In this document: one piece after another, positions 4,646 through 61,525 of the stretch
Numbering within the stretch: the stretch's first letter is position 1
How the letters are laid out: the number at the start of each line of letters is the position of its first letter
NCBI RefSeq assembly: GCF_016899935.1
Contig: NZ_JACJJK010000002.1
Span: forward strand, 1-64,000
Direction: 5' to 3'
Source of the DNA: Olsenella uli
GTDB lineage: Bacteria > Actinomycetota > Coriobacteriia > Coriobacteriales > Atopobiaceae
Length of the DNA stretch: 64,000 bases
Notes under the pieces: generated by a model
The model's input: the letters and a program-made list of their open reading frames with translations, nothing else
What the model was told of the DNA's origin: nothing
The model's database searches: none
Made by a program: the position numbers and the translations under genes

Positions 4646-7423
4646 TCACTTCCTCGCATAGGGCGTGTCATCGAGCGGCAACCTCGTCTGGAGCCGGCCG
4701 GTGAGGGCGCGGTAGGCGTTCTGCACCGCCGGGGCAGTGGGAATCGTGGCGATCTCGCCGATGCCCTTGCCGCCGTAGGCCACCGGGAGCAGCTCGTCCT
4801 TCTCGACGTAGATCGCGTGGATGTCGGGGATGTCGGGGGCACGGAAGAGGCCCAGCGTGCCAAAGCGCTCCTGCGGCACGCAGTCCTTGAGGTCGAAGCG
4901 CTCCCTGAGCGCGTATCCCATGCCCATGAGCACGCCGCCCTCGATCTGGCCCTGGATGGCGATGGGGTTCACCACCTTGCCGGCGTCGTGCGCGGCCCAG
5001 ACCTCGCTCACGCGGCCGTCATCGTCCAGAATCACCACGTGCGTGGCAAAGCCGTAGCAGATGTGGCTCTTGGGATTGGGCACGTCCGCGCCGAGCTTGT
5101 CGGTCTTCTCGAGGTACTCGTAGCCAAACTCGCAGCCCTCGAGCGCGCGGATGGCGGACGACGGGTCCTTGGGGTGCAGGCCCTCGCCGGCGCGAAGGTG
5201 GGCGCCCCAGCCCTCGTAGGGCGTGCCGTCCAGATACTCGGAGGTGATGCCGTCGCCCCGGGCGCGGACGGGCCCCTCGGGCGCGCCCTCGCCCGCCTCC
5301 ACGCGCAGCATCGCGTCGCGCAGCAGGAAGGCGGCGCCGCGCACGGCCTCGCCCGTCACGACGGTCTGGCGCGAGCCGGAGGTGGTGCCGGAGTCCGGCG
5401 CGGCCTCGGTGGAGCACTCGCCGTTGGCGACCTGCGTGCGCGGCAGGCCCGTGGCCTCGACGATGTCCTGGAGAAAGACGGTGTTGCAGCCCTGGCCGAT
5501 GTCCGAGGTGGCGGCGTAGGCCACCGCCACGCCCCCCTCGACGCGGATGAGGCAGCGCCCGGCGTCCGGCAGCCCCACGCCCACGCCGGCGTTCTTCATG
5601 GCGCAGGCGATGCCCGCGTGCCCGGGATGGGCCTCGTAGGCGTCCTTGACGGCGAGCAGGGTCTCCTTGAGCGCCGTCGAGCAGTCGGCGATCTGGCCGT
5701 TGGGCAGCACCTCGCCCGGCTCGATGGCGTTGCGGAAGCGAATCTCCCACGGCGAGATGCCGACCTTCTCGGCGAGAAGGTCGATGAGGCACTCGAGCGC
5801 GAACTCGCTCTGGCACACGCCAAAGCCGCGGAACGCCCCTGCGGGCGGGTTGTTGGTGTACCAGCCGTAGCCGCGGATGTCGGTGTTCTGATAGCGGTAG
5901 GGCCCCACGGAGTGCGTGCAGGCGCGCTCGAGGACCGGGCCGCACAGGCTCGCGTAGGCGCCGGTGTCGAAGTTGATCTCGCAGTCGAGGCCGGTGAAGA
6001 TGCCGTTCTCGTCGCAGCCGAGGGTGAAGGTCCCCTCCATGTAGTGGCGCTTGGGATGGAAGTTGATGGACTCCTGGCGCGTGAGCCTGCACTTGACGGG
6101 GCGCTGGAAGTGGTAGGCGGCGAGCGCGGCCAGATGCTGCACGGAGACGTCCTCCTTGCCGCCGAAGCCGCCGCCCACGAGCATGGTCTCCACGACCACG
6201 CGGTCCTGCTCGTCGTCCCAGCCAAACATGTGGGCGATCTCGTGGCGCGAGTCGTAGGCGCCCTGGTCGCTGGACTGCACCCACACGCCGTTCTTGTACG
6301 GGTGGGCGACGGCGCACTCCGGCTCCAGGAACGCGTGCTCGGTGAAGGGCGTCTCGAAGGTCCGCGTCACGGTGTGGGCGGAGCTCGCGAGCGCCGCGGC
6401 CGCGTCGCCGCGGGTCACGTGGCGCTGCTGGCAGATGTTGTTCTCGAGAAGGACCTCGTTGCCGAAGGCGTGGTAGCTCCTGTGGAGGATCGGCGCGCCC
6501 TCGGCGCGGGCCTCGGCGATGGAGCGGACAGGCTCGAGCACCTCGTAGTCGACCTTCACGAGCCTCTTGGCGCGCGCGAGCGCCGCCTCGTTCTCCGCCA
6601 CCACGAGGGCGATCGCGTCGCCCACGCAGCGGGTGACGTCGCCCTCGGCGATCATGACGTCCCAGTCCTGAATGAGGTGGCCCACCTGGTTGACCGGCAC
6701 GTCGCGCGCCGTGAGGACGCCCAGGACGCCCGGCACGGCCTCGGCCTTGGAGGCGTCGATCCTGAGCACGCGGGCGCGCGGGTGGGCGGCGCGCACCGCG
6801 CTTGCGTAGGCGAGGTCGGGATAGTCGCGCTCGTCGATGTCGTCCGGGTACTTGCCATAGCCCAGGACCTTGGGGCGAACGTCAACGCGGAAGGCCCGCT
6901 CGCCCACGCCGTAGGTGTCGCCGCGCTCGAGGGCCTCGTCGATCTGGGCCTCCCCGCGCAGCACCCTGGCGGCAAGCAGGATGCCCTCGATGATCTTCTT
7001 GTAGCCGGTGCAGCGGCAGACGTTGCCGCGGATGGCGCGCTTGACCTCGTCCTCGGTGGGGTCGGGGACGTGATGGATGAGGCCCGCCCCGCTCATGACC
7101 ATGCCGGGGATGCAGAAGCCGCACTGCACCGCCCCCACGGCGCCGAAGGCATAGACGAAGGCCTCCTGCTCCCTCGCGGGCAGGCCCTCCACGGTCACGA
7201 TGTCGTGTCCCGCGGCCAGGCGCGTGGTGAGGACGCACGCCTTGGTGGCGCGGTCGTCCACGAGCACGGTGCAGGTCCCGCACGCACCCTCGGAGCAGCC
7301 GTCCTTGGCGCTTGTGATGTGGAGGTCGTCGCGCAGGTAGCGAAGGAGCGGCTTGTCCTCGTGGGTGACGCGCTCCTCGCCGTTGACGGTGAAGCGGTAC
7401 TCGGCGCTTGCGCTTGCAGTCAT
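4646..7423 (-). CDS. xdh: FAD-less molybdenum hydroxylase (selenium-dependent xanthine dehydrogenase type)
   Basis: This 925-residue fusion joins an N-terminal [2Fe-2S] iron-sulfur domain to a molybdopterin-binding subunit. Cluster ligands are visible at C43, C48, C51 and C63, and a second set at C100, C103, C135 and C137 (the CGFC and CRCTGY motifs). The molybdopterin part begins near residue 165 and contains GGGFGGKE and the AFRGFG loop. No FAD domain is present in this protein or next door, which is the layout of the selenium-dependent xanthine dehydrogenase group used by gut anaerobes. Start ATG 7423 follows AGGAGGG. The likely reaction is hydroxylation of hypoxanthine or xanthine, inferred from the family and the ygfK/ssnA neighbours. 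No in-frame UGA was seen. Confidence 0.9.
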   Translation of the reverse strand: MTASASAEYRFTVNGEERVTHEDKPLLRYLRDDLHITSAKDGCSEGACGTCTVLVDDRATKACVLTTRLAAGHDIVTVEGLPAREQEAFVYAFGAVGAVQCGFCIPGMVMSGAGLIHHVPDPTEDEVKRAIRGNVCRCTGYKKIIEGILLAARVLRGEAQIDEALERGDTYGVGERAFRVDVRPKVLGYGKYPDDIDERDYPDLAYASAVRAAHPRARVLRIDASKAEAVPGVLGVLTARDVPVNQVGHLIQDWDVMIAEGDVTRCVGDAIALVVAENEAALARAKRLVKVDYEVLEPVRSIAEARAEGAPILHRSYHAFGNEVLLENNICQQRHVTRGDAAAALASSAHTVTRTFETPFTEHAFLEPECAVAHPYKNGVWVQSSDQGAYDSRHEIAHMFGWDDEQDRVVVETMLVGGGFGGKEDVSVQHLAALAAYHFQRPVKCRLTRQESINFHPKRHYMEGTFTLGCDENGIFTGLDCEINFDTGAYASLCGPVLERACTHSVGPYRYQNTDIRGYGWYTNNPPAGAFRGFGVCQSEFALECLIDLLAEKVGISPWEIRFRNAIEPGEVLPNGQIADCSTALKETLLAVKDAYEAHPGHAGIACAMKNAGVGVGLPDAGRCLIRVEGGVAVAYAATSDIGQGCNTVFLQDIVEATGLPRTQVANGECSTEAAPDSGTTSGSRQTVVTGEAVRGAAFLLRDAMLRVEAGEGAPEGPVRARGDGITSEYLDGTPYEGWGAHLRAGEGLHPKDPSSAIRALEGCEFGYEYLEKTDKLGADVPNPKSHICYGFATHVVILDDDGRVSEVWAAHDAGKVVNPIAIQGQIEGGVLMGMGYALRERFDLKDCVPQERFGTLGLFRAPDIPDIHAIYVEKDELLPVAYGGKGIGEIATIPTAPAVQNAYRALTGRLQTRLPLDDTPYARK

Positions 7424-11163: not shown

Positions 11164-12516
11164 CTAGTACGTGCGCTCGTTCAGCGTGCCCCAGAGCTTC
11201 TTTGACTGCTCGAGGGTCCAGGCGTTGATGCGCTCCTCGTCAAAGGCCACGAACTCGCGGTCCTTGTAGAGCACCTTGCCGTTGACGATGGTGGTGCGGC
11301 AGTTCTTGCCCATCATGCCGAAGAGCATGTGGCCGTCGATGTTCTCGTCCGAGAAGGGCGTGAAGACCGGGTAGTCCATCACGATGACGTCGGCCGCAGC
11401 GCCCGGCTTGAGCGCGCCGATCTCGCGCCCGAAGTAGGCGCTCGCCATGGCGGGGTTGTTCTGGAAGAGCATCGTCATGGCCTCGACCCAGCCCACGTTG
11501 GGCATGGCCGCGTTGTGACGCTGGATGATGAGGAAGACCTTGAGGCTCTCCAGCATGTCGTGCGTGTAGGCGTCCGTGCCCATGTGCACCGGAATGCCGC
11601 GGCGGAAGAACTCGAGCACCGGCGCGCAGCCCACGGCGTTGCCCATGTTGGACTCGGGGTTGTTGACGATGTGGGTGCCGGTCTCCTTGATGATGTCCAT
11701 CTCGGCGGGCGTGACGTGGATGCAGTGGCCGAGCATCGTGCGCGGGCCCAGGAGGTCGTGCTGCAGCAGCCGCTCGATCGGCGAGATGCCGCCGCGGTTG
11801 AGACGGCTGTCCCAGACGTCGTTCATGCCCTCACAGACGTGGATGTGGAAGCCGGTGAGGCCGGCGTTGGCCTCGGCCATCTTGTCCATCGTCTCGTCGG
11901 AGAGCGTGAAGGTGGCGTGCCCGCCGAACATCGCGGCGATCATGGAGTTGCCCTCGGCCTGGGCCCGGGCGGCCCACTGCGCGAACTCGGCGTTCTCGGC
12001 GATCGACTGGTCGCGCTTCTCGTCGCCGCGGCGGTCGGAGGTCTCGTAGCAGAGGCACGCGCGGATGCCCGTCTCCTCGCAGACGTCCTTGATCGCAAAG
12101 AGCGAGCCCGGTATCTCGCAGAAGCTCGCGTGGTGATCGAAGATTGTGGTCACGCCGTCGCGCAGGCTGTCCAGCACGGTGGCGTAGGCGCTCGCGCGCG
12201 TGCCGTCGAGCGTGAGGTTGTCGTCGATCTTCCACCACTGCTGCTCGAGGTTCTCCAGGAAGTTGTGCGGGTTGCAGCCCTTGATGGAGAGGCCGCGCGC
12301 CAGGCCGGAGTAGATGTGGGTGTGGCAGTTCACCAGGCCCGGCATGATGACGCCGCCGTGGGCGTCCACGTATTCCGCAGCGGGGTTGGCGGCGCGCAGG
12401 GCGGCCTCGTCGCCCACGCCCGCGATCTTGTCTCCGTCGATCAGAACGGCACCATGCTCGAAGTAGGGGCTTGCAGGGTCGCGCGTGATGACGCGTCCGT
12501 TTCCCACGAGAACCAT
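11164..12516 (-). CDS. ssnA: Putative aminohydrolase SsnA (amidohydrolase family)
   Basis: This 450-residue metal-dependent hydrolase belongs to the guanine/hydroxypurine deaminase-like amidohydrolase superfamily. The metal ligands are visible in order: NCHTH (HxH) near residue 67, FHIHVCEG, GHCIHV, and the aspartate in MGTDAYTHD. The length matches SsnA (about 440). ATG 12516 is preferred over an upstream in-frame ATG because TTGGAGAG precedes it directly. It heads the minus-strand cluster with ygfK, the ferredoxin and the hydroxylase, as in purine-degradation loci, and probably deaminates an aminopurine. The precise substrate cannot be told from sequence. Confidence 0.92.
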   Translation of the reverse strand: MVLVGNGRVITRDPASPYFEHGAVLIDGDKIAGVGDEAALRAANPAAEYVDAHGGVIMPGLVNCHTHIYSGLARGLSIKGCNPHNFLENLEQQWWKIDDNLTLDGTRASAYATVLDSLRDGVTTIFDHHASFCEIPGSLFAIKDVCEETGIRACLCYETSDRRGDEKRDQSIAENAEFAQWAARAQAEGNSMIAAMFGGHATFTLSDETMDKMAEANAGLTGFHIHVCEGMNDVWDSRLNRGGISPIERLLQHDLLGPRTMLGHCIHVTPAEMDIIKETGTHIVNNPESNMGNAVGCAPVLEFFRRGIPVHMGTDAYTHDMLESLKVFLIIQRHNAAMPNVGWVEAMTMLFQNNPAMASAYFGREIGALKPGAAADVIVMDYPVFTPFSDENIDGHMLFGMMGKNCRTTIVNGKVLYKDREFVAFDEERINAWTLEQSKKLWGTLNERTY

Positions 12517-12646
12517 GTCTCTCCAATCGCCGTCGCATACCCGTGCGAGAAGACGTCCGGACATGTCCCCGACATGCGTCGACATGCCCCCGGCGCCGTG
12601 TCAATTCCTATTATGAGGTTGGATGATGTCGGAATTCTTACAAAAT

Positions 12647-12741
12647 GTCTGCTAGCAAAAAAATCTGTCAGACGGTAGGAAGCGGCGGGCGAACGGCAGG
12701 TGAGGGCGTTTCTTTGCGGTTATAGTTACGTTAAAATAACG
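12647..12741. promoter_or_regulatory. Divergent ssnA/regulator control region with two inverted repeats
   Basis: The 252-bp gap between ssnA and the divergent regulator is distinctly A+T-rich compared with its surroundings. It contains GTCTG/CAGAC arms (12647-12651 and 12669-12673) and a tighter dyad CGTTA-aaa-TAACG (12729-12741) placed 28 bp before the regulator start. Both are candidate binding sites for the regulator. No convincing -35/-10 pair could be assigned. Confidence 0.4.
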
Positions 12742-12768
12742 ATTCCAATCACTCAGGGGGAGGACGCA

Positions 12769-13425
12769 ATGGACCGCACGCAACTCGACTTCTACCGTCG
12801 CCTTGCCAGGGCGATCGCCCTGCAGTTTGGAAGCGGCTGCGAGGTTGTCATCCATGACCTCACGTCCGACCCCTCCCACCCCATCGTTGCCATTGAGAAC
12901 GGCCACGTCACCGGCCGCAAGGTGGGCGACGGTCCCTCCCGCGTGGTGCTCGAGACCCTGCACGCGAGCAAGGGCCGGCACTTCGAGGACCGCATCGGCT
13001 ACCTCACCAGGACGGCGGACGGCAAGATTCTGCGCTCCTCTACCATCTTCATCAACGACGACGCGGGCAACGCCGTGGGCATCCTCGCCATCAACTACGA
13101 CATCACCCTCCTGCGCGCGACGCGGGGGCTTCTCTCCGAGCTCTGCGACACCGAGCCCGAGCCCGGCGCGCACGAGCCCGAGCCCATCGTCCGCAACGTG
13201 GCCGACCTGCTCGACGACCTCATCGAGCAGAGCGTGGAGCTCGTGGGCACGCCCGTGGCCCTCATGACGCGCGAGGAGAAGGTCCAGGCCATTCGCTACC
13301 TCAACGACACCGGCGCCTTCCTCATCACCAAGTCAGGCTACAAGGTGTGCAAGTACTTCGGCATCTCCAAGTACACCCTCTACAGCTACCTCGACGAGGC
13401 CAAGAACGGCCCCAAGGAGGCGTAG
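12769..13425 (+). CDS. YheO/DauR-like transcriptional regulator with PAS-type sensor domain
   Basis: This 218-residue regulator has a YheO-type PAS-like domain at about residues 10-110 (LDFYRRLARAIALQFGSGCEVVIHDL, then GHVTGRKVGDG) and a DauR-type helix-turn-helix domain at about 160-215 (YLNDTGAFLITKSGYKVCKY, then GISKYTLYSYLDE). ATG 12769 follows GGGGGAGG. It is transcribed divergently from ssnA, the usual arrangement for a pathway regulator, so it probably senses a purine-type metabolite and controls the ssnA-ygfK-hydroxylase cluster. The ligand is not evident. Confidence 0.88.
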   Translation: MDRTQLDFYRRLARAIALQFGSGCEVVIHDLTSDPSHPIVAIENGHVTGRKVGDGPSRVVLETLHASKGRHFEDRIGYLTRTADGKILRSSTIFINDDAGNAVGILAINYDITLLRATRGLLSELCDTEPEPGAHEPEPIVRNVADLLDDLIEQSVELVGTPVALMTREEKVQAIRYLNDTGAFLITKSGYKVCKYFGISKYTLYSYLDEAKNGPKEA

Positions 13426-13454
13426 CCGGGCGCCTGCGAAGAGCTCTCGGCGCG

Positions 13455-13862
13455 CTACCCGAGCGCGGCGCAGTACGCGGGGGCGTCCATGCTGGGGACG
13501 CGCGACCCGCGATAGGCCGACGCGTCGCGCGTGACGATTGCCTCGGCGCCCAGAAGCTCCGCCGTCGCGCGGACGATGCCGTCCTCGAGGTCCGGCTCGT
13601 CCGACGCGAAGGCCGCGTCCAGGACGGGACCCGTGAGCTCGGCCACCTCCATCAGCGCTCGGAAGTCGTCCAGCCGCGCCCGCACGAGCCCCTCGTCGTG
13701 ATAGTGACGACACAGGATGTAGTAGGCGTCCTTGATGCCGGCCGCGAGGATCACGGGCGTCTTATCCTCTGCGGAGAGTAGCGCCTCGAGCAGGTCGACG
13801 GCATCGTGGTGCCTCTCGCGCGTCGCGCTGAGGTAGTCGAGGATGATGCTGGTGTCGAGCAC
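13455..13862 (-). CDS. PIN-domain toxin of a type II toxin-antitoxin pair
   Basis: This protein of about 135 residues has the PIN ribonuclease layout. It starts VVLDTSIILDYLS with the first catalytic Asp, continues with a central glutamate-containing region, then EPDLEDGIVRATAELLGAEAIVTRD with the later acidic residues. Such toxins cleave RNA until neutralised. No ATG is available at the right place. GTG 13862, four bases after the antitoxin stop codon, is the likely start, which fits translational coupling to the antitoxin. Confidence 0.8.
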   Translation of the reverse strand: MLDTSIILDYLSATRERHHDAVDLLEALLSAEDKTPVILAAGIKDAYYILCRHYHDEGLVRARLDDFRALMEVAELTGPVLDAAFASDEPDLEDGIVRATAELLGAEAIVTRDASAYRGSRVPSMDAPAYCAALG

Positions 13863-18852: not shown

Positions 18853-18999
18853 CGACAGGCCGACACGGGCCACCCGCGCGCGCACGAGGCCGTATCCCCG
18901 CTGAAATCTTCCCGTTTTGGGCACCGCGCTTGACGCTCTTCTCGGCAACGCATGCGTCCTGTGCCCCACAACCGGACGTGACCCGATGCCCTTCTCGCC

Positions 19000-19123
19000 A
19001 GTACGCGCTTTCCTACGTTTTGGCGCCCAATTCCGTTGGCAATCGCGTATTGGCTTCCGTCGATACGCGATTGCCAACGTTTTTGGCGTCTCATTTGTTG
19101 GAAGTCGCGTATTGGCGAGAAGC
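19000..19123. repeat. Tandem composite repeat of 62 bp containing inverted halves (array E)
   Basis: The 413-bp gap between gatC and the next gene holds two copies of a 62-bp composite unit. Each has an inverted half (TACGCG...TTTTGGCG, at 19000 and 19062) and a direct half (GTTGG...TCGCGTATTGG, at 19035 and 19097). The middle direct and inverted halves form perfect 17-bp arms (19034-19050 and 19063-19079). The rest of the gap, 18853-18999 and 19124-19220, shows no gene or other clear structure. Confidence 0.8.
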
Positions 19124-43192: not shown

Positions 43193-43204
43193 ACAGGGCG
43201 CGCG

Positions 43205-43459
43205 GCTCCAGGAATTGCCGACCATGTCCCGGTGCGCCCTAAGAATTGCGGACCTTGTTCCAACGCATTCTAGGAAAACCCGCCCTTGCTCCAAGGAGCT
43301 CTAGAAATCTGCGTCCTTGTTCCACGGGAAGGCTGTACGCGACACAAAACCCCTGGATTCCCGATGCACCCTGGGAACAAGGGCCGGACTTTCTAGAAGC
43401 CGCCGGGACAAGGGCCCGATTTTCTAGACCACCCCGGGACAACCCCCGCGATTCCTAGA
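43205..43459. repeat. 31-bp-period direct-then-inverted repeat array D1
   Basis: Four direct degenerate units begin at 43209, 43240, 43271 and 43302, spaced exactly 31 bp. After a less clear stretch (43333-43355) come four inverted units with anchors at 43361, 43393, 43424 and 43455. The unit consensus resembles CTAGGAATCGCCGCCCTTGT followed by CC and a variable part. It fills the gap between two convergent genes. Confidence 0.88.
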
Positions 43460-43472
43460 CGCGCCGCGCCCG

Positions 43473-48402: not shown

Positions 48403-48492
48403 GAAGCCCCCACGTTCTTCTCGGTGACTGCGTGCCCTACGAGTGTAGCGGCATGACCGGACGGCAATTGCCGGGATCTGGCTACCCGACAA

Positions 48493-48563
48493 ATGCTGAC
48501 AAAGGTGTCAGGGCAGTTTGTCATGTTTTTCATAACAAACTGCCCTGACACCTTTGTCAGCAT
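48493..48563. repeat. Perfect 29-bp-arm inverted repeat between marR-like gene and pcrA
   Basis: Arms 48493-48521 and 48535-48563 match perfectly with a 13-base A+T-rich loop. Each arm also contains a smaller palindrome, CTGACA-aagg-TGTCAG. It is about 12 bp beyond the stop of the MarR-like gene (minus strand), so it can act as that operon's terminator, and it lies upstream of the pcrA start. Confidence 0.9.
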
Positions 48564-48575
48564 CCGGCAGGTCGG

Positions 48576-54643: not shown

Positions 54644-55075
54644 CTAGAGGTCCTCGTCCTCGTCATTGTCGCCGAGGTCGAGCTCGACCTCGCGCATGGC
54701 CGCCTGGCCCTCGGAGACAGCGGAGGCGCAGAGGGCCATCGGATCGTCCGTCTGCAGGTCAAAGGCCGCCGTGAGCGCCATCGGCAGGCTCACGCCGCCA
54801 AAGGCGCGCGTGCGGGCGAGCAGCCCGCGCCCGGCGAGCACGTTGAGGGCGTTGGTGAGCGGGGACCCGCCGATGATGTCGCCCATGACGATGACCTCGT
54901 CGCCCTCGCCGATCTTCTCGACCACCTTCTCCAGCTCGGCGACGTACTCGTCGGCGCCCTCGCCGTCGCGCAGGCTGCAGCTCAGGATGTCCTCGCGCTT
55001 GCCCACCAGCATGTCGAGCACGCTGTGCAGGCCCGGCGCGAACGTGCCGTGGCTCACCAGAAGCAGATACCTCAT
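54644..55075 (-). CDS. PTS mannose/fructose/sorbose family, IIA component
   Basis: This 143-residue IIA of the mannose class has the active-site histidine in LLLVSHGTFAPGL (H9). MGDIIGGSPLTNALNVL is the family-typical loop, and an acidic tail follows. It is the first gene of the PTS operon, separated from the upstream hydrolase gene by 455 bp of regulatory and repeat DNA. Confidence 0.94.
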   Translation of the reverse strand: MRYLLLVSHGTFAPGLHSVLDMLVGKREDILSCSLRDGEGADEYVAELEKVVEKIGEGDEVIVMGDIIGGSPLTNALNVLAGRGLLARTRAFGGVSLPMALTAAFDLQTDDPMALCASAVSEGQAAMREVELDLGDNDEDEDL

Positions 55076-55144
55076 GTCGTTTCCTCTCGCGTGATTGTCG
55101 GGGCCGCTTTTCAGGTCCCTGTTCGTGATTTGATTGTTGCTATT

Positions 55145-55215
55145 AACTATTAACGGGGCAATCGGATAGTTGCCAGCGGTAACTATTCGTCGGTTAACGG
55201 TAGCAACTATTTCGG
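55145..55215 (-). promoter_or_regulatory. PTS operon upstream region with repeated ACTAT/ATAGT sites
   Basis: AACTAT or its complement occurs at 55145, 55165, 55181 and 55205 in an A+T-rich stretch, several inside longer matches (TTAACTATTAAC, GGTAACTATTCG, AGCAACTATTTC). They look like multiple sites for one repressor or activator. No clear -35/-10 pair could be fixed. The remainder of the gap (55250-55540) is a repeat array. Confidence 0.5.
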
Positions 55216-55249
55216 TTTGAAACTACAATCACGGCATACCGAGGCGTGG

Positions 55250-55543
55250 CCTTCTAGGAAAAGACGGCCTTGTACCAGCGGATTCTCATAATTCGCGCCC
55301 TTGTCGCATGGGTGTCTAAGAAAACGGGACCTTGGCCACCGGAACCGGCCTACAGGTGCGCACGGGCGGGAATTCCTAGAGTCGCGCGGTACACGGGCGG
55401 CGATTCCGGGACGCCACCGGGACAACCCCGGCGATTTTCGGAAGGGCTCGCGACAAGGGCGGCGATTCCCGGACGCCGCCGGAACAACCCCGGCGATTCC
55501 CGGACCGCGCGGCGACAAGAACGCCGATTCCTAGAATCGCTCC
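55250..55543. repeat. 31-bp-period direct-then-inverted repeat array D2
   Basis: Three direct units have anchors at 55254, 55285 and 55316. After an unclear stretch come six inverted units with anchors at 55376, 55407, 55438, 55469, 55500 and 55531, every step exactly 31 bp. The CTAG of the last unit provides the TAG stop codon of the hydrolase gene. The units are degenerate, not identical. Confidence 0.9.
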
Positions 55544-56556
55544 GCCCAACGGCCGAGAAACGCGCCCACGGCGCCCCAGTAGCGCCCCGGGTCGGCGAAG
55601 ACGGAGCAGCAGTGACCAGCGCCCGAGAAGGTCACGAGCTCGTGGCCCGTCCCCGCAGCCGCGAGCTCATGGGCCATCGCGACGGGGACCACGCGGTCGA
55701 GCTCGCCGTGGAGCAGCAGCACCGGCACCCGCACGTGCGCGAGCGCGTCGACCGGACGGGCGAGGCGCAGGTCGTACCCGCCGGGCGCGCGCAGGAGCCG
55801 GCGGCGCGCGACGTCGAGCAGCGGGTGCGCCGCGACCGGTGGCGTCCCGAGCGAGCCCGTCTCCACGACGTTTTCCGCCGCGCGCCAGAAGTCGGCGTAG
55901 CCCGAGTCCGCCACGCAGGCGAAGACCTGCGGCGGGAGGTCCTTCTCGGCAGAAGCCATGAGGCAGGAGGCGGCGCCCATCGAGATGCCCATGAGCGCCA
56001 CGCGGGCGCCCTCCCCCGCCCGGGCCGTGACCCAGCGGGCCCACGCCACGAGGTCGCGCCGGTCGAGCCAGCCGCAGCCCACCCAGTCCCCGCCGCTCGC
56101 CCCGTGGGCACGCAGGTCGCAGAAGAGCAGGTTGAAGCCCATGTCGGCAAGCCGCCGGGCGAAGGTGAGGCCGGCGCGCCAGTTGTCGTGGTAGCCATGG
56201 GCAAAGACGACCCAGCGCGGGGAGTCCGGCCGGCACGCGAGCGCGTGGCCGACGAGGCGGGTCCCGTCGTCGGAGGCCACGGACACGTCCTCCACGCCTG
56301 CGGGCAGCTGATGCAGCCAGCGCCAGGTACGGTCGGCCTCCTCGGCGCGGTCCCACTCCATGACCTCCCCCTCGTGCGCGGAGAGGCCCGGGGACATGTC
56401 GCGCACGCGCGCGTCGCCGCCCCCGCCGAGGTAGGGCCCCAGCTCCTCGGAGCCCAGGTCGCGCTGCGGCCCCAGGACCGCCGGCAGCAGCCTGCCGGCG
56501 AGCGCCGCCGCGACGAGCCCACGAACGGCCGACGGCCTCCTGTTCCTCTCGTTCAT
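55531..56556 (-). CDS. Alpha/beta hydrolase, membrane-anchored or secreted
   Basis: This 341-residue alpha/beta hydrolase has an oxyanion loop VVFAHGYHDNW, nucleophile elbow LMGISMGAAS (GxSxG), the acid in the LLHGELDRVVP region and the histidine in SGAGHCCS. A positively charged N-terminus and a short hydrophobic stretch (VRGLVAAALAGRLLPAVLG) suggest membrane association. The substrate is unknown. ATG 56556 follows GAGGAGG, 8 bp after the phosphatase gene. Its stop codon lies in repeat array D2. Confidence 0.88.
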   Translation of the reverse strand: MNERNRRPSAVRGLVAAALAGRLLPAVLGPQRDLGSEELGPYLGGGGDARVRDMSPGLSAHEGEVMEWDRAEEADRTWRWLHQLPAGVEDVSVASDDGTRLVGHALACRPDSPRWVVFAHGYHDNWRAGLTFARRLADMGFNLLFCDLRAHGASGGDWVGCGWLDRRDLVAWARWVTARAGEGARVALMGISMGAASCLMASAEKDLPPQVFACVADSGYADFWRAAENVVETGSLGTPPVAAHPLLDVARRRLLRAPGGYDLRLARPVDALAHVRVPVLLLHGELDRVVPVAMAHELAAAGTGHELVTFSGAGHCCSVFADPGRYWGAVGAFLGRWAERF

Positions 56557-60194: not shown

Positions 60195-61274
60195 GTGATA
60201 GCAGGTAAACGCACGGGAACGAGAGTCTTTGGCGTCCTTCTCGCCGGTCTTCTCGCCTGTGCGGCGTGCCCGTTCGTCGCCCGGCCCACCGTGGCCGCCG
60301 CCGACCCGATGGGCGAGCTCCAGGAGATCCAGCAGCAGATCGAGCAGGGCAACGCGGACTACGAGGCAGCCACCGCCCAGGTCGAGGAGATCCAGGGCCA
60401 GATCGACGAGAACGAGGACCGCATCGCCGAGATCGAGGCGGAGCTGCCGGACGCCCGGGACCGCGCCGCGTCGTCCATGCGCACCCTCTACAAGATGCAG
60501 CAGAGCTCCGGCGGCCTCGTGGAGCTGCTGCTCGCCTCCGATGACTTCTACGACCTCCTCTCCACGGTGCAGTACCTCGACGTCATCCAGTCCAGCAGCA
60601 CCGACGCCCTCGACGAGCTCGTCGCGCTCGAGGGCGAGCTCGAGATGACGCGCGCCAGCCTCAGCTCGCAGATGGAGGAGGCGGAGGAGCAGCAGGCCGA
60701 GGCCGAGGCCGCGCTCGAGGCCGCCAACGCCGCCCGCGCCGAGCTCCAGGCGCAGATCGCCGCCCAGGAGGCCGCCGAGGCCGCCGAGCGCCAGGCCGCG
60801 CTCGAGGCGGCCCAGAAGGACCAGGGCAACTCCTTCACCACAGAGTCCGGCAACCAGGCGCCGGTCGAGGTCCCCTCCTCGCCCAACGCCGGCAGCGTCG
60901 ACTGGAACATGGACCGCGAGTCCTTCATCAGCAGCTGGGCGTCGCGCATCGACGCCTACCTCGCCGGCTCCCCCCTCGCCGGGCAGGGCCGCACCTTCGC
61001 CGAGGCCGCCTGGGAGTACGGCGTGGACCCGCGCTTCTCGCCCGCGATCTCCATGGTCGAGAGCACGCAGGGCCGCTACTGCTTCCTCCCCCACAACGCC
61101 TGGGGCTGGGGCAGCTCCAGCTGGGGCAGCTGGGAGGAGGCCATCTGGGACCACGTGGCCGGCCTCGCGGCGGGCTACGGCGGCCAGCTCACCTACGCCG
61201 GCGCCCTCAAGTACTGCCCGCCCAACGCGGACCACTGGTACACGAGCGTCCTGGCCAACATGCAGCGCATCTAG
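60195..61274 (+). CDS. Secreted coiled-coil protein with lysozyme-like C-terminal domain
   Basis: This 359-residue protein has a signal peptide (about 1-38, with VFGVLLAGLLACAACPF), then a long coiled coil at about 40-215 (LQEIQQQIEQ, then EIQGQIDENEDRIAEIEAEL) like CwlO/PcsB N-terminal domains, a short linker, and a C-terminal domain (about 240-355). That domain has ISMVESTQGRYCFLPHNAWGWGS, typical of lysozyme/glucosaminidase-like folds where the Glu could be catalytic. It probably works in wall turnover at division. GTG 60195 follows GGAGGAA. The TAG stop begins repeat array D3. Confidence 0.85.
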   Translation: MIAGKRTGTRVFGVLLAGLLACAACPFVARPTVAAADPMGELQEIQQQIEQGNADYEAATAQVEEIQGQIDENEDRIAEIEAELPDARDRAASSMRTLYKMQQSSGGLVELLLASDDFYDLLSTVQYLDVIQSSSTDALDELVALEGELEMTRASLSSQMEEAEEQQAEAEAALEAANAARAELQAQIAAQEAAEAAERQAALEAAQKDQGNSFTTESGNQAPVEVPSSPNAGSVDWNMDRESFISSWASRIDAYLAGSPLAGQGRTFAEAAWEYGVDPRFSPAISMVESTQGRYCFLPHNAWGWGSSSWGSWEEAIWDHVAGLAAGYGGQLTYAGALKYCPPNADHWYTSVLANMQRI

Positions 61275-61525
61275 GAATCGCCGCCCTTGTCGCGGGGGCG
61301 CCCGGGAATTGGCGACCTTGTCGCGCGCGCTTCTAAGAAATCCGGGCCTTGTCCCACCGAGTTCCAGGAATCGCCGCCCTTGTCGCAATTTGCTCCGGAA
61401 ATCGTCGGGCTTGCCACGGATATGCGGTCCAACGGGGAACAAGGCCGAACTTTTCTAGAACGCGCCGGGACAAGGTCCCCACTTTTTTAGAACGCTCCGT
61501 ACCAAGGGCGGCGTTTCCCGGATCG
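61271..61525. repeat. 31-bp-period direct-then-inverted repeat array D3
   Basis: Five direct units have anchors at 61271, 61302, 61333, 61364 and 61395, exactly 31 bp apart. Three inverted units follow with anchors at 61455, 61487 and 61518. The first unit starts CTAGGAATCGCCGCCCTTGT and its TAG is the stop codon of the secreted protein gene. The array fills the gap between two convergent genes. Confidence 0.9.

Follow-up and report, generated by a model that had tools for sequence, protein, structure and literature searches.

The D2 array of Olsenella uli is probably a solo member of a genome-wide set of arrays, dyad-symmetric and in helical phase, which are the putative sites of a cognate protein whose gene lies elsewhere in that genome. 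Because such arrays flank a nuclease-like gene, and the relatives of its product have array sequences of their own, arrays and gene look, on comparison of their sequences, like a previously undescribed pairing of a protein with DNA sites that match it. The pairing of protein family and array type is well supported; binding of the arrays by the cognate protein is what we infer, and cleavage by the family protein is only suggested by its sequence. No description of such an array-protein system was found in the open-licence literature searched. The window, the whole stretch of 64,000 nucleotides that was analysed, is taken from a genome of 2,125,402 bases in 131 contigs, designated G000.

D2 and its sister arrays

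D2 consists of nine type I units of 31 bp, located with a PWM that was trained on the window and 35 stretches around D2 blastn matches in G000. The left arm (55250-55342, minus strand) contains three units, which start at 55250, 55281 and 55312, and the right arm (55353-55538, plus strand) six, with a period of exactly 31 bp and starts at 55353, 55384, 55415, 55446, 55477 and 55508. A dyad spacer of 10 bp (55343-55352) lies between the arms, giving a start-to-start step of 41 bp where the strand changes, the lone step that is not 31 bp. The strict 31-bp period of the original prediction, with three units in one orientation and six in the other, was thus recovered, since all same-strand steps are 31 bp. 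Two further gaps had been assigned to the same family, and both hold type I arrays between convergent genes. D1 (43204-43462) has seven units, four on the minus strand and three on the plus strand, and D3 (61267-61525) has eight, five minus and three plus, with one 32-bp step. They are of the same kind as D2, although the switch is 73 bp in D1 as opposed to 41 bp in D3. Together the three arrays account for 24 clustered units, close to the 25 or so that had been estimated. The junction at which D3 lies also carries an array in the related genome G014 (L143). In an information-weighted autocorrelation of the window, in which lags of 15-79 were considered with multiples of three excluded, the top lag was 31 (z 11.5, at D2), as predicted, followed by 62 (z 10.7), 32 (z 5.8, in D3) and 43 (z 4.4).

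D2 is located upstream of an EIIA-like gene (mannose-type PTS; 54644-55075, minus strand) and is bordered on its other side by an alpha/beta-hydrolase-like gene (55531-56556, minus strand); both are ORFs whose names are inferred. In a scan of 75 flank proteins, in which individual proteins were not itemised, two matched the EIIA-man Pfam family and two matched hydrolase families. Among named records, those nearest to the EIIA-like protein come from Olsenella and Thermophilibacter. The stop codon of the hydrolase-like gene lies inside the CTAG of the last D2 unit. Such an overlap, in which the CTAG of the outermost unit contains the TAG stop of the neighbouring gene, occurs in the window at 55531-55533 and 61272-61274 and, with the same offset (-8), in six of 38 clusters.

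Could the arrays be operators or insulators for the neighbouring genes? The position of D2 upstream of a PTS gene, the intergenic location of the arrays and the presence of an array beside a MarR or ABC transporter gene in some genomes would agree with such a role. Whether copies lie mainly at gene ends had been proposed as a check. All 38 clusters in G000 are intergenic, but the genes that flank them are mixed in orientation (16 --, 10 +-, 7 -+ and 5 ++, as determined with our own simple gene caller) and there is no orientation preference. Ten clusters are situated between convergent genes, and one lies between a murG-like and a murC-like gene of the same orientation. The array neighbours examined are mixed and largely housekeeping genes, which makes an operator role in a single pathway unlikely. 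The EIIA-like gene, moreover, has upstream a promoter-like stretch at about 55130-55225 (TAGTTGC...GTTAACGG...AATAGTTACCGCTGACAACTA, here on the other strand) that is separate from the array and is kept in the relatives compared, whether the array is present or absent. Operators or insulators are therefore considered very improbable. A promoter reading was set aside on inspection alone.

Number, motif and geometry of the arrays in G000

A blastn search of G000 with D2 yielded 125 matches at E <= 10, and the PWM scan identified at least 38 clusters of five or more units, with 391 units. The number of clusters is a lower bound because at least one more dyad (C81:21004) lies outside the stretches scanned. 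The consensus of the type I unit is about cCGgGACAAGGgCGgCGATTCCtaGA. Same-strand steps are 31 bp in 277 of 303 cases, and the 44 minus-to-plus switches measure 41 bp in 32 cases and 42 bp in four. When a whole turn is defined as within 1 bp of 20, 31, 41, 51, 62, 72, 82 or 93, whole-turn spacing is observed in 534 of 536 same-strand neighbour steps of three genomes (G000, G014 and G004), in a scan that retains only the best of those units that lie 10 bp or less apart on a strand. The units are directed outward from the dyad and form arms of up to 15 units. Innermost units often differ from the others: CGCG or TGCG precedes CAAGG in 34 of 64, whereas GCGA or GGGA predominates in the units adjacent to them. 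The consensus is asymmetric, its sole palindrome being the inner 4 bp, CTAG/CCGG. At step 25-26 of the unit, CG or TA is found in 297 of the 391 units and TG or CA in just 60, a bias that points to a self-complementary inner step. The suggestion of a phased protein-binding array is supported, short of proof, by the whole-turn spacings of 31, 41, 51 and 62 bp, by the dyad symmetry and by the candidate protein gene between two arrays that is described below.

The units are not recent tandem copies of each other, in agreement with the original prediction: mean identity is 0.60 within clusters and 0.58 between clusters. It is 0.63 for next neighbours, and a search for near-copy neighbours among the units uncovered only a modest local excess.

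A nested RNA hairpin, which had also been proposed, would be transcribed and would act as an RNA or a terminator. It would account for the dyad symmetry, and the RNA of D2 folds better than shuffled sequences (z -3.4 and -2.4); the folding is not decisive because any inverted array folds well. In a search for compensatory change in the G000 and G014 clusters, units of mirror rank were no closer to each other (0.609, 205 pairs) than other units (0.601, 1,174 pairs; p 0.18), which leaves the hairpin unsupported. The arms often have unequal numbers of units, and the spacings by DNA turns, with mixtures of 31 and 41 bp in relatives, would be needless for a hairpin. This explanation can hardly be credited.

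Arrays in related genomes

Many more copies exist in the genome and in its relatives, as the original prediction would have it. R1, a model built from sequence alone on the central 134 bp, detects only type I/II-like motifs; at E <= 0.001 it had hits in 11 of the 31 genus genomes. At E <= 1e-6 and with stricter filters, it matched nine of 140 genomes of the family, all of them within this genus (35 genomes). Many of the 20 genus genomes without an R1 match hold other array types. In G014, a type I genome, the stretches taken contained 22 clusters, with steps of 31 bp in 131 of 135 cases and switches of 41 bp in all 22. In G004, at least 21 clean arrays were found in the 21 stretches taken. They display a type II motif, GGAA...TTCCgGGACG, and a different period, in that 82 of 98 steps are 41 bp and 13 are 31 bp, with 16 of 21 switches at 41 bp. 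The same junction may be occupied by different types in different species. Arrays at the EIIA junction are of type I in L059 and L060, of type III in L067 and L068 and of another type in L075, and those at the coaD junction are of type I in G000, G003, G014 and G025 and of type II in G004 and G016.

At 12 junctions common to G000 and G014, the identity between units, taken in the better of two orientations, was 0.63, compared with 0.575 (sd 0.037) for random pairs. As the same junctions carry arrays whose units barely exceed random similarity, it was concluded that place, phase and motif persist while the remaining sequence is rewritten. Arrays have also been gained or lost at conserved junctions between the two genomes. 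Gene adjacency is kept in nine of ten array gaps with both neighbours mapped and in 87 of 93 gaps without an array, counts that show array gaps not to be general synteny breaks.

These comparisons bear on whether the arrays are selfish repeats of the REP/BIME kind, propagated by copying and mobilised by an enzyme that the flanked gene encodes. A repeat-flanked gene together with dispersed solo repeats, the patchy presence of the arrays, the junctions that carry an array in only one of G000 and G014, and the tandem duplication of whole dyads (three each in L022, L026 and L051) all favor this explanation. So does the number of similar unit pairs from different clusters, which exceeds that in column shuffles both at 24 or more of 31 identical positions (1,889 versus 794) and at 26 or more (272 versus 56). 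The excess can, however, result from linked columns or old shared ancestry, and near-identical pairs are rare, with 12 of 73,946 at 28 or more positions and 2 expected. Arguing further against such copying are the near-random similarity of the same-junction arrays in G000 and G014 and the conservation of many junctions. Spreading by copying is accordingly regarded as an unlikely, although serious, alternative to a set of protein sites.

In two places, arrays border a segment of several genes, which had prompted the idea that they mark cassette boundaries; in view of the adjacency counts, the two cases are kept as side observations. In G008 (L103, 9387-16496), two type I arrays surround a 6.6-kb PTS/SIS/GntR segment that shares 97.9% identity with G014, or 93-95% towards its ends; outside it, mazG is 85.1% identical and mfd 78-95% in blocks, so that there is no sharp border towards mfd. 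Transfer of the segment, with arrays near its ends, is possible from these identities. In G029 (L105, 7791-11094), an ABC/FtsX gene pair lies between two type II arrays; the corresponding place contains a single array in G004 and a single array plus another gene in G000.

A gene family with its own arrays at part of its loci

The candidate partner of the arrays is a family of proteins of roughly 360 aa that is encoded outside the window. In G014 (L191), type III arrays at 5418-5525 and 6742-6849 surround one gene, the product of which has 352 aa and no Pfam match at E <= 0.001. A search with this protein yielded 6 to 16 matches per genome in the 31 genomes of the genus (E <= 0.001). The type I member of G000 is located at C49:250062-251105, as delimited by the match (ORF of about 364 aa); in L190 this gene, at 12021-13112, is enclosed by type I arrays at 11457-11745 and 13127-13661. 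In G000, G003, G025 and G014, a type I gene has a type I array on either side, the orthologues in the last three genomes being 75-76% identical, whereas the 66% identical orthologue of G016 has two type II arrays on its sides. Type III arrays flank the type III gene of G014 and of G029 and, with just a 27-bp match on the contig-end side, that of G028. In G000 and G014, the neighbours of the type I locus are an ABC transporter gene and, opposite it, a DUF308 gene; for the type I/II locus of G016, G003 and G025, ORF sizes alone suggest the same neighbours.

In a gene-masked scan, arrays of the locus's own motif flanked 14 of 37 family loci on both sides and 22 on at least one side. Among 130 control genes of G000 scanned in the same way, none was flanked on both sides and 20 were flanked on at least one; the controls stem from three G000 contigs that hold 12 arrays and the family loci from many genomes, which makes the matching of the two sets imperfect. 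Eight of the 37 loci had no phased unit on either side (the distant paralogues L284, L287, L290 and L292 as well as L260, L262, L270 and L281). Across the 26 members that had at least three phased links, protein identity correlated with motif similarity (Spearman 0.487; none of 2000 permutations as high), mean motif similarity being 0.86 for the 10 pairs above 70% protein identity and 0.29 for the 159 pairs at 40-50%. Shared descent contributes to this correlation and alone could yield it. A second close paralogue in G000 (C60:176374) has a different motif (CCGACTTGGCAGA, in steps of 41) on both sides; in the 320 kb of G000 scanned, this motif also occurs solo at about 173.6 kb of C60 and about 13.0 kb of C121. 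Two gene-array types thus coexist in one genome.

Other loci show how far gene and arrays are separable. At the orthologous place of G004, no family gene is present, and two units are left between the ABC-like and DUF308-like genes. Since G004 nonetheless has clean type II arrays, either arrays can outlive the gene or another protein uses them. In G029, the orthologue, a type I/II protein (L105, 15779-16855), no longer has Y, H and the second D at the conserved positions and is without flanking arrays, the two type II arrays found being 5-8 kb away; this one case would fit a link between an intact site and the arrays. G008 contains two type I arrays, and among the matches listed for it none had the 47-51% identity to the 352-aa query that is typical of type I orthologues. 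No relative was found in the viral contigs searched with the family protein, and a viral match to the array (L184) was rejected as a chance occurrence of a single unit.

The persistence of arrays in G004 in the absence of the gene at the orthologous place would be expected if the arrays were chromosome-organising sites, nucleoid or loop anchors of an unrelated DNA-binding protein, and if the nuclease-like gene were a hitchhiker that had entered or come to lie beside them. The number of sites (about 40, dispersed, per genome), the unbiased gene orientations and the conserved junctions would likewise suit such a function. Yet many paralogues have their own motif on both sides, even within one genome, which would not be expected of a hitchhiker in common arrays. 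In a screen for alternative binders that covered ParB_N, a single gene was found in each of G000, G003, G004, G014 and G025 and two in G016 and G029, so that no Noc-like ParB paralogue was seen in five of six array-rich genomes. Organising sites of an unrelated protein are considered improbable, and a protein of the flanked family remains the preferred partner of the arrays.

Properties of the encoded protein

In an alignment of 31 members, E181 and H249 are present in all, Y244 and R261 in 30, and D225 and D258 in 29 (numbering of L285). The conserved E, D, H and D are the presumed catalytic residues of what we take to be an EDxHD-like pattern. The Pfam family REase_MTES_1575 (PF18741) matched 17 of the 31 members at E <= 1, with a best value of 1.2e-4; in the case shown, the score was 16.1 bits, under the cut-off of 38.2. 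Other Pfam families that matched at E <= 1 were DUF559 in two members and DUF2726 in five. NCBIfam, searched with three proteins, and PADLOC, searched with four, gave no match. The sole PDB profile match was a weak one to a mobile intron protein, 3r3p (E 0.47; 1.1 with the C-terminal part), presumably I-Bth0305I, an EDxHD homing nuclease with a Vsr fold. Together these similarities weakly suggest that the family has a C-terminal nuclease signature of the Vsr/EDxHD-like kind (PD-(D/E)XK superfamily). Among the type I orthologues, conservation is 0.61-0.69 in the first 80 columns, 0.83-0.90 in columns 121-280 and 0.66 in a tail stretch (columns 321-360). Reading of the motif was tentatively placed in the N-terminal part because the first 80 columns are, together with the tail stretch, the least conserved.

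Proposed mechanism and comparison with known systems

In the model that we favor, the fast-evolving N-terminal part could recognise the array motif. The cognate protein would bind the arrays cooperatively, starting at the dyad, where the innermost units differ, and further protein would be added outward from the dyad along one face of the DNA, with one protomer or dimer for every 31 or 41 bp. More speculatively, nicking or cutting at the arrays might cause their fast rewriting through repair. Taken to its full extent, the model would make the system a bacterial analogue of motif-directed recombination or self-marking: families of Vsr/EDxHD-like nucleases, each with phased dyad arrays both beside its gene and dispersed over the chromosome, would form filaments outward from the dyad, nicking and repair would rewrite the arrays while motif and phase are kept, and protein and motif would change together between species. 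This extended form is offered tentatively and is somewhat doubtful.

Motif and protein also change together, and sites are quickly rewritten, in the case of PRDM9 and the recombination hotspots. The resemblance is one of analogy only, as the present system is bacterial and its proteins are different. Dispersed binding sites are familiar from ParB/Noc-type and iteron-type proteins. The arrays resemble these in that they are many and dispersed and could plausibly be bound cooperatively along one face of the DNA, and differ from them in their long, asymmetric units, directed outward from a dyad, and in the distribution of Noc-like paralogues noted above. With the EDxHD/Vsr-like nucleases (I-Bth0305I, REase_MTES_1575, DUF559), to which it has weak profile matches, the family shares the conserved E, D, H and D. 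It is distinguished by an added variable N-terminal part, by the large number of paralogues per genome and by the flanking arrays of its own motif; to our knowledge, no such arrays flank EDxHD/Vsr-like nucleases.

The layout alone is most similar to that of RAYT genes and REP sequences. As described in PMC3116915, RAYT genes have their own repeat type on their flanks, the repeats are also dispersed between genes, and several types occur per genome. In the RAYT-REP system (REPtron), as in part of the present family (the 14 loci flanked on both sides), a gene has its own repeat type on either side. Unlike RAYT, the family gave no Y1/HUH match (IS200/IS605 kind) in Pfam: none was obtained with two proteins at E <= 5, nor did the families listed for the 31 members at E <= 1 include one. 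REP is a palindrome of 20-40 nt that forms a hairpin, often with a GTAG-type tag, whereas the array unit is asymmetric. In contrast to REP and REPIN, the arrays are long, have one dyad and a phase of 31 or 41 bp, and share a motif with few near-identical stretches. As the defining features of protein and repeat are not those of RAYT-REP, the system was not filed there. Of the BIME-like mosaic element that had been suggested, the layout of repeats and a gene that they flank was found, but unit, geometry and protein are unlike those of REP/BIME and RAYT.

If these interpretations are right, dozens of chromosomal sites in a gut bacterium undergo joint changes of motif and helical period from one species to the next. 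Several types exist within one genus, and the protein-site pair would constitute a natural experiment in the co-evolution of DNA recognition and the sites recognised. Given the nuclease signature, one may ask why a chromosome would retain about forty targets for a protein of this kind. The results also suggest that repeat finders readily overlook phased intergenic arrays, since the units differ at about 40% of positions.

Other repeated sequences

Several other elements were observed in the course of the analysis. An uncultured Collinsella record (L086, 8962-9081) contains a tandem array with a period of 20 bp, about two DNA turns. In the window, GTTCTTCTCG and its complement occur well above the expectation from base composition (11 TTCTTCTCG, 0.07 expected), for example at 48414, 51826 and 51844; the sites lie within genes, between genes and inside some array units. 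A different intergenic element, an inverted repeat with 42-nt arms and a TGACAAAGGTGTCAGGG core, is located at 48484-48572; its junction is occupied by a type I array in G014, and similar hairpins are present in L061. A further inverted repeat, with 60-nt arms that are 75% complementary, extends from 18991 to 19122.
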